A DNA stretch of 64,000 bases from an uncultured Alphaproteobacteria bacterium (GTDB lineage Bacteria; Pseudomonadota; Alphaproteobacteria; Micropepsales; Micropepsaceae), in the NCBI GenBank assembly GCA_903897605.1, contig CAIUCH010000057.1:1-64000 (forward strand), written 5' to 3'. A program made the translations under genes and the position numbers. The notes below the pieces were generated by a model, which saw nothing but the letters and a program-made list of their open reading frames with translations, was not told where the DNA came from and searched no databases. Shown piece by piece: positions 1-5,215 of the stretch. Each line of letters opens with the position of its first letter. The stretch's first letter is position 1.

Positions 1-2
1 CC

Positions 3-137
3 CGTGCTGCGACCACGGGCGAGGTGCAGGATCTGCGCCGTGAGACTAATGCCCTGAAGGAGTGCGTAGCAGACCTGACCCTGGAAAACCGGCTGCTTAA
101 AAAAAGCATGCTGGGGGATGGGGACGACGAGGCATGA
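3..137 (+). pseudogene. IS3-family OrfA transposase, C-terminal remnant
   Basis: The frame is open from the window edge to TGA at 135-137 and reads as 44 residues ending LENRLLKKSMLGDGDDEA. This is the leucine-zipper tail of an IS3-family OrfA, the helix-turn-helix half of the transposase. In intact IS3 elements OrfB follows at once, overlapping in another frame; here no OrfB-like frame follows the stop. The upstream part lies outside the window. I read it as the end of a decayed insertion sequence inside an integrated element next to tRNA-Val. Confidence 0.7.
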
Positions 138-200
138 GGTAAACACGCTTATTTCCGGCATCCGCGTTTCTGCATCATCGATACCATCGAAGATAAGGGT

Positions 201-380
201 ATGGAGCCACAAAGAAGTTATAATTTTCAACTTCAGATTGCCCGCGTGTCGCAGGAAAGTCCCGTCGAACATCAGATTATATACGGCACCGCCATGATCT
301 GCCCTGATCTCGACGAAGAACAATACACCGTGGGAAAGTTTTCCACCCGCGACGAGCCCACGCTGGCTATTCAGGTCTAG
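201..380 (+). CDS. Small hypothetical protein, 59 aa
   Basis: An ATG preceded by AAGGGT opens a 59-codon frame ending in TAG, too short for the ORF track. The product has no signal peptide or membrane segment. It is acidic in its second half (PDLDEEQYTVGKF) and has one Cys. I do not recognise a family. It lies between an IS3 remnant and a tRNA gene and is probably element cargo or a fragment of a larger lost gene. Coding status is uncertain. Confidence 0.4.
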   Translation: MEPQRSYNFQLQIARVSQESPVEHQIIYGTAMICPDLDEEQYTVGKFSTRDEPTLAIQV

Positions 381-419: not shown

Positions 420-494
420 TGGTGGGCGCGAGAGGGATCGAACCTCTGACCTTCCCCGTGTGAAGGGGACATTCTCCCGCTGAACTACGCGCCC
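420..494 (-). tRNA. tRNA-Val (anticodon CAC)
   Basis: The minus strand folds as a complete cloverleaf. The acceptor GGGCGCG pairs with CGCGCCC, the D stem is GTTC/GAAT, the anticodon stem is TCCCC/GGGGA with loop TTCACAC (anticodon CAC at 460-462), and the T arm is AGAGG-TTCGATC-CCTCT. The discriminator is A and the 3' CCA is encoded. The D and anticodon stems differ from the truncated tRNA-Val at 690-726, so it is not a recent copy of that gene. It probably serves as the working replacement. Confidence 0.93.
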
Positions 495-609
495 GGATTA
501 GATAGTGCTGCTCGATTGCCCCATATTGCACTGCTCGTCAATCGGTTTTGGCACGCTTGATTCTGCATTTCTGGAACTGCCGAGAAGTGCCGCGAGATAC
601 CGAGCCCCC

Positions 610-700
610 TCCCTTCATCAGTTTGGGTTTTCTCTGGAGCAAGCCATTGAGGTCATTGATAAATAGCCGATATTTCTCAGAACCCAAAAGTGTGAAGGGA
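610..700. repeat. Imperfect inverted repeat at the tRNA break point
   Basis: Positions 610-633 read TCCCTTCATCAGTTTGGG followed by TTTTCT. The reverse complement of 679-700 reads TCCCTTCACACTTTTGGG followed by TTCT. The arms match at about 18 of 22 positions and are separated by about 45 bp. The right arm includes the anticodon loop of the broken tRNA-Val. The arrangement resembles paired core sites of a site-specific recombinase or an element terminus. No recombinase gene is visible in the window. Confidence 0.5.
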
Positions 701-726
701 GTGCTCTCCCGCTGAGCTACGCGCCC
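690..726 (-). pseudogene. tRNA-Val (CAC) 5' half, truncated at the anticodon loop
   Basis: The minus strand reads a canonical 5' half of tRNA-Val: acceptor strand GGGCGCG, D arm GCTC-AGCGGGA-GAGC, anticodon 5' stem CTCCC and loop TTCACAC. It then diverges to TTTTGGGTTCTGAG, which cannot pair with the stem. The T arm and 3' acceptor strand are absent. The break is exactly at the 3' edge of the anticodon loop, a known integration position for tyrosine recombinases. It is best read as the chromosomal side of an insertion that was not healed by element sequence. Confidence 0.8.
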
Positions 727-794
727 TTTTCCATAAGGGGAGCATCGCCTTAAGGAGCGGCCCGGCCCCTGTCAAGACGGGGCCTCGGGGCGCT

Positions 795-2390
795 TCAAGA
801 AGCTAACGGCAGGTCGATCCAGAAGCGGGTCTGGCGGCCCGGAATGCTTTCGAAATCGATCCGGCCGCCTTGCTTTTCCGCCAGCAGCTTGGCGACGGAC
901 AGGCCCAGCCCCGCACCCGGCACAGCCCGCCCGCCAGTGTCATGTCCGAAAGGCCGGAACATCGCTTCGCGTTCCCTGAGCGGGATGCCGGGCCCGACAT
1001 TCATGATCTCGATCCGCCCGAAGCCGTCGCCCAGGCGCGACGCGCGAACCCGGATGGGGGATTCGGTGTCGCCATATTTGTAGGAATTGGCGATCAGGCT
1101 GTTGATGATCTGCGCCAGCCGCTGGGGATCGGCCTGCACGCTGAGGTCGTCCGCGATCTCGCCGAGCAGCACGGGCTTGCCGCCCAGCGCCGCGTCCAGC
1201 CGGATCGCCCCGATGCAGTTTTTCAGCGTCTGGCCCAGCTTCACACGTTCCGGATGAATGGTGAGCATGCCGGCCTCGGCGCAGGCAAGATCGTTGAGAT
1301 CGGCGTAGAGCCGCTGCAGCAACTCGCCATTATGCGCCACGACATGGGCGAATTCCCGGGCCCGGTCCGGCGGCAGTTTGCCGGATTCCAGCACGGTGGA
1401 AATTCCGATGATCGCCGACAACGGGCCGCGTGCTTCTTCGCCGACATGAGAGAGAAGTTGACTCTTGAAGCGGGAAGCCCGGGATGCGCGGCGCCTGCGG
1501 CGTTCGATGATCGCCAGATGCAATTCGCGTTCGTTCAGCACCATCGCGGCGCGGGCACTGATCAGGCCGGTGACGGCCAAGAATAACTGCATCACCTCGA
1601 TGCGCAAAATCGGATCGTGAGGCGCATGTGGTCCGGGTGGGTAGAACTGGATCGCCAGCACGATCAGCATTGCCGCGCCCGCACCCGGCAGACGGAAGCG
1701 CGCGGTGGCGATCAAAGCCACCGCCAGAATCAGGAACAGCATCTGATAGGCAGCGATATGCAGTACATAAATGCTGACCAGAGCCACAGCGGCGAAGGTC
1801 GCCATCGCTTCGACGGCACGGCGCTCCAGATGCAGCTTGACGAGTTGCCGCCATGTCAGGTTGAGCCCGAAGGGCAGAACAATACAGAAGCCGAGAGAAT
1901 TGGCCGAGAACCAGTGACGCGCATCCGTGATCCAGGTGGGATCGCCGACCGCCCACATCAATGTCGCCGCCAGCACTGCGCCCACCGCGGCTGGCGCGAT
2001 GATCCCAGCCAGAAGAAAGCGCAAAGTGGCACGCAGGTCGCGAAATCGCTTGGGCCCGAAACGCCGCACCGCAATCAATCCCGTCAGCACTTCGATCAAC
2101 CCGATGACGGGATAGCCAAGACCGAGCGGCGTCGGCAAAGCGGTGGCGATAGTAAGAACGACATGCGCCACGAAGATCGCGCCCAACATGACGGCATCCT
2201 GGGTGCGCGAGCGCGACAATCGCAGCGTCATGCAAAGCCCGAACGCCGTGGCCGGCCAGATCAGAGACACCATGTGCCCAGCGCCCGACAGCAATCGGCT
2301 GCCATAGCCCAAGGCCAGGAAACCGCCGGCGGTGAACAGCGCCTGCAACAGCATGCGCGGCCAGTTGTTGCCGCCGCCAGCCCGCGTCAT
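795..2390 (-). CDS. MASE1-type sensor histidine kinase with degenerate H-box
   Basis: This is a 531-aa membrane protein. Residues 1 to about 285 carry about eight hydrophobic segments in a MASE1-like sensor arrangement, followed by a basic linker (ERRRRRASR) and a histidine-kinase core. The region matching the canonical SHELRTPL reads GEEARGPL, so the phospho-accepting His is Glu (about residue 318). The N-box (IANSYKY, N near 435) and the G2 box (GAGLGLSVAK) are present, but the G1 Asp reads Asn (IMNVGPGIP). No response regulator is adjacent. It may be a degenerate or partner-dependent kinase, or use another acceptor. The family call is solid; activity is doubtful. Confidence 0.85.
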   Translation of the reverse strand: MTRAGGGNNWPRMLLQALFTAGGFLALGYGSRLLSGAGHMVSLIWPATAFGLCMTLRLSRSRTQDAVMLGAIFVAHVVLTIATALPTPLGLGYPVIGLIEVLTGLIAVRRFGPKRFRDLRATLRFLLAGIIAPAAVGAVLAATLMWAVGDPTWITDARHWFSANSLGFCIVLPFGLNLTWRQLVKLHLERRAVEAMATFAAVALVSIYVLHIAAYQMLFLILAVALIATARFRLPGAGAAMLIVLAIQFYPPGPHAPHDPILRIEVMQLFLAVTGLISARAAMVLNERELHLAIIERRRRRASRASRFKSQLLSHVGEEARGPLSAIIGISTVLESGKLPPDRAREFAHVVAHNGELLQRLYADLNDLACAEAGMLTIHPERVKLGQTLKNCIGAIRLDAALGGKPVLLGEIADDLSVQADPQRLAQIINSLIANSYKYGDTESPIRVRASRLGDGFGRIEIMNVGPGIPLREREAMFRPFGHDTGGRAVPGAGLGLSVAKLLAEKQGGRIDFESIPGRQTRFWIDLPLAS

Positions 2391-2866: not shown

Positions 2867-3550
2867 TTATGACAGCCCGAAATTCAGTCTGCCGATCGCA
2901 TCGGGCAGATGTTTGAAATGATCCAGCACCGCGTCCGCGCCCAGCGATGCCGCCGGCACCGGCGTATAGCCATAGGACATCAGGATGCAGGGCACGCCGC
3001 TGGCCCGCGCGGTCTGCAGGTCGGTAACGGAATCCCCGATCATGACACCCCGGCCGCCATGGCCTTTGCCGCCGGACAGCTCCGCCACCACATCCTCGAA
3101 GATGCGCGGATCGGGTTTGACATAGGCTTTCAAGCCCGCGCCATAGACGACGGGGAAAAAGCGCATCAGGTCCAGCCTCGCCAGCAGCGGCCCGGCCAGT
3201 TCATGCGGCTTGTTGGTGAGCACACCCATCGGCACGCCCCGCGCTTTCAACCGATCCAGGGTTTTCTCAACCCCGGGAAAGGGGCGGCTGAAATCCGCCA
3301 AGTGATCGCGGTAATGGGCGATGAAGATCGCCTCCAGCGCCGGCATCTCCTCGGCCTGGGCTTCCTCGCCGGTGAGGGCAAAGGCCTGGGCGATCAGGGA
3401 GCGGGCCCCGAACCCGATCATGTGGTGCAGGGCGTCGGGATCGATGGCGGGGCGGTCCCGTGCCGCCAGAACGGCGTTGGCGGCGCCCAAAAGGTCCGGG
3501 GCGGTATCGACCAGGGTGCCGTCCAAATCAAAGATCAGGGTGGGTGTCAT
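2867..3550 (-). CDS. gph: Phosphoglycolate phosphatase (HAD superfamily)
   Basis: This 227-aa HAD hydrolase dephosphorylates 2-phosphoglycolate, a by-product of DNA repair and oxygenase reactions. Motif I is FDLDGTLVDT near residues 7-16 with both Asp residues. Motif II contains LTNKP, the Lys motif is KPDPRIF, and motif IV is GDSVTDLQTA. The cap domain lies between motifs I and II. Length matches the Gph family. It is divergent from glmU across the tandem-repeat leader; gph beside glmU/glmS is a common alphaproteobacterial arrangement. Confidence 0.9.
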   Translation of the reverse strand: MTPTLIFDLDGTLVDTAPDLLGAANAVLAARDRPAIDPDALHHMIGFGARSLIAQAFALTGEEAQAEEMPALEAIFIAHYRDHLADFSRPFPGVEKTLDRLKARGVPMGVLTNKPHELAGPLLARLDLMRFFPVVYGAGLKAYVKPDPRIFEDVVAELSGGKGHGGRGVMIGDSVTDLQTARASGVPCILMSYGYTPVPAASLGADAVLDHFKHLPDAIGRLNFGLS

Positions 3551-3638
3551 GGGAGGCAGTAATAAGGTTTAATTTGGGGGCAATATAGTGTCGCAAATCG
3601 TCACTTCCTCTTTTTATGCTCGGGACATACCGGAAACC

Positions 3639-3770: not shown

Positions 3771-3894
3771 GGCCGCCATCATTCTCGCAGCGGGTCCCGG
3801 AGTATTTTTCCGGAAGTCGCTAATGCAACGGGTCGGCTCGGTGTTGGGCCGGAAAAAATGCGACAAGAAAACAAAAGGCACCCGCGATGAATAG
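3763..3894 (+). CDS. Upstream mini-ORF 2 (duplicated glmU N-terminus), 43 aa
   Basis: This second 43-codon copy begins MNRAAIILAAG, identical to GlmU over the first 11 residues, and ends in TAG overlapping the real glmU ATG (again ATGAATAG). It has AAAAGGC about ten bases upstream. Because the unit is 124 bp, not a multiple of three, each copy is in a different frame and cannot extend GlmU. Translational coupling to glmU is plausible but inferred. Confidence 0.3.
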   Translation: MNRAAIILAAGPGVFFRKSLMQRVGSVLGRKKCDKKTKGTRDE

Positions 3895-5215
3895 GGCCGC
3901 CATCATTCTCGCAGCGGGGGCCGGCACCCGCATGAAAAGCGCGACCGCCAAGGTCCTGCACAAGGTCGCGGGCCTGCCCATGCTGGGGCATGTGATCGCC
4001 GGACTGAAGGCGGCTGGTGTAAGCCGCATTGTGGTGGTGACAGCACCGGACGCCGACGCGGTTCGCGATTATGCGCACGCCCAGGGCTGTCAGAGCGCAG
4101 TCCAGGACAAGCAGCTCGGAACCGGCCATGCGGCGGCGGCGGCGGGCGAATCGCTCAAGGATTTCGACGGCGAATTGATGATCGCTTATGGCGACATGCC
4201 GTTGATGACGGCTTCGACTTTCGAGGCGTCGTTCGCGGCGCGGGGAGAAGGGCTTGCCATCGTCGCCTTTCGCGCCACCGATCCGGGCGCTTATGGCCGC
4301 GTGTTGCTGGATGCGTTCGGTGCGCTGGACCGCATCGTGGAATTCAAGGACGCCAGCGAAGCCGAACGCAGAACCGACCTCTGCAATGCCGGGGTGCTGA
4401 CGGCGGATGCCCGGAAATTCTTCGCCTGGGCCGCCAAGCTCGACAACAAGAATGCCCAAGGTGAATTCTATCTCACCGATGTGCCGGCGCTGGCCAAGCG
4501 CGATGGCGCGCGCTGTGCCGTCGCCACCGTAACGCAGACCGAGGCTCTGGGCGTCAACAGCCGCGCCGAGTTGGCCGAGGCGGAGCGCCTGATGCAAAAT
4601 CGTCTGCGCGCCAAAGCCATGGCGGCCGGTGTCGGCATGATCGCGCCGGAGACGGTGTTCCTGTCGTACGACACCGTGCTGGACGCCGATGTCATGATCG
4701 AGCCCTTTGTCGTGTTCGGCCCCAAGGTGCAGGTGGCGTCGGGTGCGCAGATCAAGAGCCACAGCCATCTGGAAGGCGCGCAGGTTGCATCCGGCGCCAT
4801 CGTCGGCCCTTTCGCGCGCCTGCGTCCCGGCGCGGTGATCGGTGAAAGCGCCCATATCGGCAATTTCGTGGAAGTGAAGAACAGTGTCATCGACAAAGGC
4901 GTCAAGGCCAACCATCTGACCTATCTGGGCGATGCTCATGTCGGCGCGGGCGCCAATATCGGCGCTGGCACCATCACCTGCAATTATGACGGCTATACCA
5001 AGTCCCATACCGAGATCGGCGCGGGCGCCTTTATCGGTTCCGACACTTCGCTGGTGGCGCCGGTGACGGTGGGCGCCGGTGCGATCACCGCGGCAGGATC
5101 GGTCATCACCAAAAATGTGGAGGCCGACGCGCTGGCATTGGCGCGCGGACAGCAGGTGGAAAAGCCGGGCTGGGCGAAGGCGTTCCGCAATTACAAACAG
5201 AAAGAGAAGCGCTGA
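3887..5215 (+). CDS. glmU: Bifunctional GlmU: GlcN-1-P acetyltransferase / GlcNAc-1-P uridylyltransferase
   Basis: GlmU (442 aa) acetylates glucosamine-1-phosphate and couples it to UTP, giving UDP-GlcNAc for peptidoglycan and LPS. The N-terminal domain has the signature ILAAGAGTRMKS, LHKVAGLPM and YGDMPLM. The C-terminal left-handed beta helix shows hexapeptide repeats (VGPFARLRPGAVIGESAHIG) and the acetyltransferase region NYDGYTKSHTEIG. Its TGA overlaps the glmS ATG by one base, so the two are translationally coupled. The ATG is the third tandem copy of its own start region. Confidence 0.96.
   Translation: MNRAAIILAAGAGTRMKSATAKVLHKVAGLPMLGHVIAGLKAAGVSRIVVVTAPDADAVRDYAHAQGCQSAVQDKQLGTGHAAAAAGESLKDFDGELMIAYGDMPLMTASTFEASFAARGEGLAIVAFRATDPGAYGRVLLDAFGALDRIVEFKDASEAERRTDLCNAGVLTADARKFFAWAAKLDNKNAQGEFYLTDVPALAKRDGARCAVATVTQTEALGVNSRAELAEAERLMQNRLRAKAMAAGVGMIAPETVFLSYDTVLDADVMIEPFVVFGPKVQVASGAQIKSHSHLEGAQVASGAIVGPFARLRPGAVIGESAHIGNFVEVKNSVIDKGVKANHLTYLGDAHVGAGANIGAGTITCNYDGYTKSHTEIGAGAFIGSDTSLVAPVTVGAGAITAAGSVITKNVEADALALARGQQVEKPGWAKAFRNYKQKEKR

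Follow-up and report, generated by a model that had tools for sequence, protein, structure and literature searches.

Why should the 5' half of a tRNA-Val(CAC) gene stand beside a complete, divergent tRNA gene with the same anticodon? The question is raised by a draft genome (G000; 2.79 Mb in 60 contigs), of whose contig C57 the first 64 kb are called the window below. The 37 nt at positions 690-726 of its minus strand (GGGCGCGTAGCTCAGCGGGAGAGCACTCCCTTCACAC) are 100% identical to nt 1-37 of the tRNA-Val(CAC) of the genus, and the same 37 nt open the native gene in many relatives. They end precisely with the final base of the anticodon loop (7 nt, TTCACAC) and are directly abutted by unrelated sequence (TTTTGGG...). 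Both points agree with the original prediction, which had described a tRNA-Val 5' half that ends after TTCACAC and whose 3' half is not restored by the element side; in relatives, hybrid stems mispair. Since Rfam at E<=1 gave no tRNA match for 690-726 on the minus strand, we regard this segment as half a tRNA only. A 29-nt pattern running from the D-arm to the loop matched once in the window, with 0.00 matches expected from shuffled sequences. Read along the minus strand, the half (726-690) is followed by a spacer of 195 bp, an intact tRNA-Val(CAC) (494-420), 39 bp, the tail of an oppositely oriented gene (380-141) and a fragment of an IS3 orfA (141-1). Window base 1 is also the first base of the contig, which therefore breaks off 419 bp past the intact tRNA.

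Introns of tRNA genes sit in the anticodon loop, and the position of the break would fit a split or intron-bearing tRNA, in which the half is joined in trans to a 3' half or is the exon of a group I intron. There is no 3' exon nearby, a group I intron was not among the Rfam matches, and the half has a complete tRNA beside it that looks functional. The intron or split-tRNA reading was rejected on the missing Rfam match, and we assign it a negligible probability. Upstream of the half lie a host histidine kinase gene (795-2390, minus strand; MASE1-HisKA-HATPase by Pfam), with homologues at the same place in several relatives, and a gene for a gph-like HAD phosphatase (2867-3550, minus strand; Pfam), which by synteny is the conserved upstream neighbour of tRNA-Val(CAC), also in a case from the Methylobacteriaceae (L185, described below). 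They are followed by glmU (3887-5215, plus strand), a conserved flank by synteny that was named from its sequence. Because the genes upstream of the half (gph, glmU and glmS) show synteny with those at tRNA-Val(CAC) in relatives, the broken half belongs to the native gene, which occupies its conserved site after gph and glmU.

The intact tRNA-Val(CAC) at 420-494 (minus strand) is called by ARAGORN, scores 64.9 bits as an Rfam tRNA and has its CCA encoded. Its acceptor, anticodon and T stems are fully paired, and its D stem consists of three Watson-Crick pairs and one G-U. It has the orientation of the broken gene. The original prediction had placed a tRNA of the same anticodon, with different D and anticodon stems, about 195 bp from the half; the spacer is indeed 195 bp, and the differences from the tRNA-Val(CAC) of the genus amount to 12 of 75 positions and extend to the T stem as well. 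It has its D-arm and anticodon stem in common with the island-borne tRNA-Val(GAC) of two relatives (G027 and G028) but departs from the latter at 8 sites, among them the anticodon, here switched to CAC, and its neighbours. Plasmids and phages, searched for kin of this tRNA, contained no close relative (best 84% and 80%), and in viral contigs we found no such broken half, no relative of the element integrase of another congener (G073, see below) and no replacement tRNA of this type. The prediction hinged on the number of tRNA-Val(CAC) genes in the genome, and on this point it also stood: among the 36 tRNA matches of the assembly, the copy at 420-494 is the only CAC tRNA, and a second one was not found.

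Past the cut, the DNA carries gene remnants. Positions 141-380 (plus strand) retain 79 codons from the C-terminus of an AAA ATPase that belongs to an ABC-three-component (defence-type) system. This remnant is 62% identical over 78 aa to an Allorhizobium plasmid protein that adjoins ABC-3C components, and aligns to its residues 559-636. Positions 1-141 (plus strand) hold the end of an IS3-family transposase orfA, truncated at the contig end, with 83-87% identity over 1-141 to IS3 transposases in plasmids. The likeness of the ATPase C-terminus to the Allorhizobium protein marks the DNA beyond the cut, by its sequence, as foreign, decayed island cargo. Searches of the window genome's own assembly for the displaced 3' half, with a strict pattern and with up to three mismatches, gave none, and the IS3 end lies 280 bp away. 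Both observations would also be expected if a tandem pair of tRNA-Val(CAC) genes had simply decayed, a deletion or an IS insertion having removed the 3' half of one copy, with no replacement element involved. We hold such a decay to be improbable, however, given that the examined relatives have one canonical CAC tRNA at the locus and no tandem pair, that the intact copy differs at the 12 of 75 sites given above, that the cut falls exactly at the loop end, as in nine other loci, and that at tRNA-Val(GAC) both displaced ends were found in five relatives. Near the locus there is no integrase, the four integrase matches of the assembly all being on other contigs.

We consider it very likely that a tyrosine-integrase island split the tRNA-Val(CAC) gene via a 7-bp core, brought a replacement and then decayed. 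A genomic island of this kind would have entered the host gene with the 7-bp anticodon loop alone as common core and crossover point (690-696, minus strand), splitting the tRNA without rebuilding its 3' half, unlike ordinary tRNA islands. Instead, it would have carried a complete tRNA-Val(CAC) 195 bp inside its end, in the same orientation as the broken gene. Transcription would probably run from the orphaned native promoter through the 5' half into the replacement tRNA, which would be freed by RNase P and customary 3' processing. The island would since have decayed, as the truncated IS3 and the ATPase fragment suggest, and the replacement would have been retained as the sole gene for Val(CAC). 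A single end with the att core is visible in the window genome; at the far end we would expect island cargo, an att end ...TTCACAC and then the displaced 3' half, GGGAGGGGTCACAGG...CGCGCCCACCA. This 3' half and the integrase are presumed for the window genome, and in relatives the same architecture is seen with both ends.

Eight other species of the genus (G027, G028, G009, G017, G001, G071, G080 and G073) have the same design at tRNA-Val(GAC): the native gene is cut after the loop TTGACAT, and a whole replacement tRNA-Val(GAC) follows. The short spacers of these congeners measure 80-126 bp; in G073, the replacement is 2.5 kb off, with a tyrosine integrase in between. Displaced 3' halves were located in five of the eight (G027, G028, G009, G017 and G080), each preceded by the same 7-bp core, and homologous cores (TTGACAT) stand at both element ends. 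The 3' half lies 27 kb away in G027, a single-contig genome, 20 kb away in G028, and on other contigs in G009, G017 and G080. Once the native halves were rejoined, ARAGORN called a tRNA-Val(GAC) in all five. The rejoined stems pair fully in G027 and G080, and one pair is missing in G028, G009 and G017, as is expected of a displaced piece that is free to drift. In the window genome, tRNA-Val(GAC) is intact at the same syntenic locus, which represents the empty-site state. The evidence from G001, G009, G017, G071, G073, G080 and L185 is limited by MAG binning and contig ends.

The two element ends also bear on a reversed polarity, in which a promoter and 5' half newly brought by the element were fused to the 3' half of the host and the broken piece is the displaced 5' end. 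Such 5'-restoring integration would find a parallel in Islander, where 159 of 3919 islands have 5' fragments (PMC4383910), and one element end in G009 bears a further 5' half, preceded by a promoter-like sequence of its own. Against it, the host 3' half was located at another place in five relatives, where it pairs with the broken 5' half, and the stems mispair when the 3' part of a replacement is set against a native 5' half. In G027, both native halves lie outside the intact copy, 27 kb apart, and no sequence other than the replacement matches a GAC tRNA over its full length. Since the mispairing between native 5' half and replacement 3' half affects at least one pair, the replacement did not arise at the junction as a hybrid. 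In its simple form, 5'-restoring integration was rejected for stem mispairing and is contradicted in G027, G028 and G080; we regard it as very unlikely.

An island-borne integrase, as insertion of a tRNA-carrying island would involve, is intact within the element of G073 (423 aa, tyrosine integrase), truncated in G009 (53% identity to that of G073) and present as a fragment beside the 3' half in G080. There is no Phage_integrase match inside the G027 island and only a split one in G028 (C2:331.9-332.4k), and these two elements therefore look like dead islands whose tRNA persists. Their sampled cargo is metabolic (peptidases, aminotransferases, an amidase, sulfotransferases and regulators), and no phage structural genes were seen in the subset of ORFs scanned. 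Outside the genus, a Methylobacteriaceae MAG (L185; JAFAVH010000020.1) has a CAC half, 70 bp, an intact CAC tRNA with a different anticodon stem and then foreign-looking sequence, with a gph-like gene adjoining. It is an independent CAC case in another family, and the only other case of the CAC type. The claim that an element broke the tRNA and carried its replacement is now well supported, mostly via these relatives: the eight congeners at GAC, the five 3' halves and the Methylobacteriaceae CAC case.

Integration of the island would leave the native tRNA promoter orphaned, with predicted read-through via the 5' half into the replacement. The probable promoter is found at 748-775 (minus strand; TTGACA-16-TTAAGG), the best -35/-10 match upstream of the half, which is weak if taken alone (p about 0.08). 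In 10 of 10 loci, the simple scan gave a promoter-like match upstream of the native 5' half (shuffle p 0.01-0.08); in the nine short spacers, no match rose above background. The spacer of the window (495-689, minus strand), which forms the element end between att core and replacement, likewise has no promoter above background and shows no similarity to the other fetched loci. The distant replacement of G073 has a promoter-like match of its own (TTGCCC-17-TATATG, p 0.11). A stricter promoter scanner reported none in positions 380-830 of the window. Judging from the consensus matches, the orphaned host promoter probably drives the replacement, and RNase P would trim the transcript.

The replacement tRNAs of G017, G001, G071 and G080 are 100% identical, while their spacers share only 51-67% identity, except for the G017/G001 pair, which is near-identical throughout. 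Such identity of the replacements next to divergent spacers suggests purifying selection and a replacement that is in use. Val(GAC) is very probably essential. In the window genome, the host presumably depends on its replacement as well, and we expect this dependence to be weaker for CAC than for GAC because GUG might also be read by a UAC tRNA; if so, Val(CAC) may be dispensable. A Val(UAC) gene was not seen in the draft assembly, which misses several tRNAs.

In two congeners, the events look serial or tandem. On contig C66 of G009 (L078), two loop-ended tRNA-Val(GAC) 5' halves (639-675 and 3577-3613) lie 2.9 kb apart and enclose the truncated integrase mentioned above (53% identity to the G073 enzyme). 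Most simply, this would mean that a first element arrived with a tRNA of its own, which a second element then struck. In G028, two elements adjoin at C2:372,661, and a pair of identical replacement tRNAs is separated by 40 kb. Viewed as a whole, the G028 region (C2:322,669-412,490; L062-L064, L125 and L126) is a tandem array of tRNA-carrying islands that comprises this pair of identical tRNA-Val(GAC), two displaced 3' halves that differ from each other and the one element-element junction; one 5' half is missing.

Counted with a strict pattern that excludes divergent D-arms and a G after the loop, and thus as a lower bound, the broken half occurs in 8 of 69 genomes of the genus, G027 being a ninth, and in 7 records across 84,980 genomes, namely six apparent congeners and the Methylobacteriaceae MAG. 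A class-wide pattern matched only the window among 385 genomes, just 5 of them from the genus. Its demand for a non-G after the loop misses about one quarter of the cases, for example the second half of G009, and its fixed letters miss divergent halves such as that of G027. Ordinary tRNA-restoring islands, with an intact canonical tRNA and a separate 3' half, are absent at the window locus itself. Since they are also common in the genus at the same two tRNAs, two strategies meet at one hot spot, and the window represents the rarer of them. Ordinary restoring islands at tRNA-Val(CAC) were seen in G026 (C50; L080), G020 (C3; L076) and G013 (C6; L072 and L073), with lengths from 1.2 kb to about 54 kb by the distance from the tRNA to the displaced 3' half. 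In G001 (C340, 4005-4060; L134), a tRNA-Val(CAC) 3' half at a contig end is inverted relative to the gph and kinase remnants that are normally upstream, an arrangement due to inversion or misassembly.

The principle behind this design is already known as tRNA-dependent lysogeny. In actinobacteriophages, a short core is used, the tRNA is not rebuilt and a phage tRNA of the same isotype is required; there is genetic proof in mycobacteriophages, and the authors expected occurrence elsewhere (Guerrero-Bustamante & Hatfull 2024, mBio, PMC10865867). Our loci share with that system the junction inside a host tRNA gene without rebuilding (690-726 of the window, the eight congeners and L185), the short common core (the 7-bp loop, at both ends in G027, G028, G009, G017 and G080) and an intact tRNA of the same anticodon on the element (CAC in the window and L185, GAC in the eight relatives). 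They differ in that the sampled islands hold metabolic cargo or remnants instead of phage genes, in belonging to the Alphaproteobacteria and in using tRNA-Val with GAC or CAC. Moreover, the phage tRNA lies elsewhere and has its own measured promoter, whereas here the tRNA usually lies 70-195 bp inside the att end, collinear with the orphaned host promoter. The proof there is genetic and our case is built from sequence comparison, and here the replacements themselves were apparently struck. Closer in taxonomy, prophages and islands of Sinorhizobium meliloti, also an alphaproteobacterium, replace an integration-inactivated tRNA by a divergent isoacceptor from the element, e.g. tRNA-Leu(UAG), with no evidence of element tRNAs serving as new integration sites (PMC11476347). 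Those elements are mainly prophages, in contrast to ours, and G009 and G028 look serial or tandem. Classical islands of tyrosine integrases normally restore the tRNA, the attP carrying the restoring fragment (Islander, PMC4383910). They resemble the present ones in the att site centred on the anticodon loop, and those of some relatives also in the tyrosine integrase and the displaced 3' half that marks the island end, but the 5' half in the window runs into unrelated sequence instead of being restored by such a fragment.

What appears to be new is the use of this principle by decayed non-phage islands in Alphaproteobacteria, the replacement of a replacement and a substitute set 70-195 bp behind an orphaned host promoter. 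This would extend tRNA-dependent integration to decayed metabolic islands in a large alphaproteobacterial genus, account for the foreign takeover of core tRNA genes and for the persistence of dead islands, and suggest orphan promoter capture as a simple expression mechanism. Such islands escape Islander-like searches because these seek a fragment of the same tRNA together with an integrase. For a more general rule, the balance is even: non-phage islands may need only 7-nt loop homology and set their own tRNA behind the orphaned host promoter, later islands hitting the replacement. If so, islands would be freed from matching the rest of the host tRNA, an island would be hard to delete even without an integrase, and host tRNA genes would be replaced successively by island-borne ones as later islands target the replacement.

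Three further tRNA loci were noted in the window genome. ARAGORN called a low-scoring tRNA-Ile(AAT) of 92 nt on contig C31 (42128-42219; L234), which is unusual in its long variable region and whose anticodon assignment is doubtful. A disrupted tyrosine integrase near the end of contig C16 (71405-71924) lies about 0.8 kb from tRNA-Glu(CTC) and is probably another decayed tRNA island. On contig C39 (13493-14226), an intact tyrosine integrase frame of 380 aa lies about 0.2 kb from tRNA-Thr(CGT).
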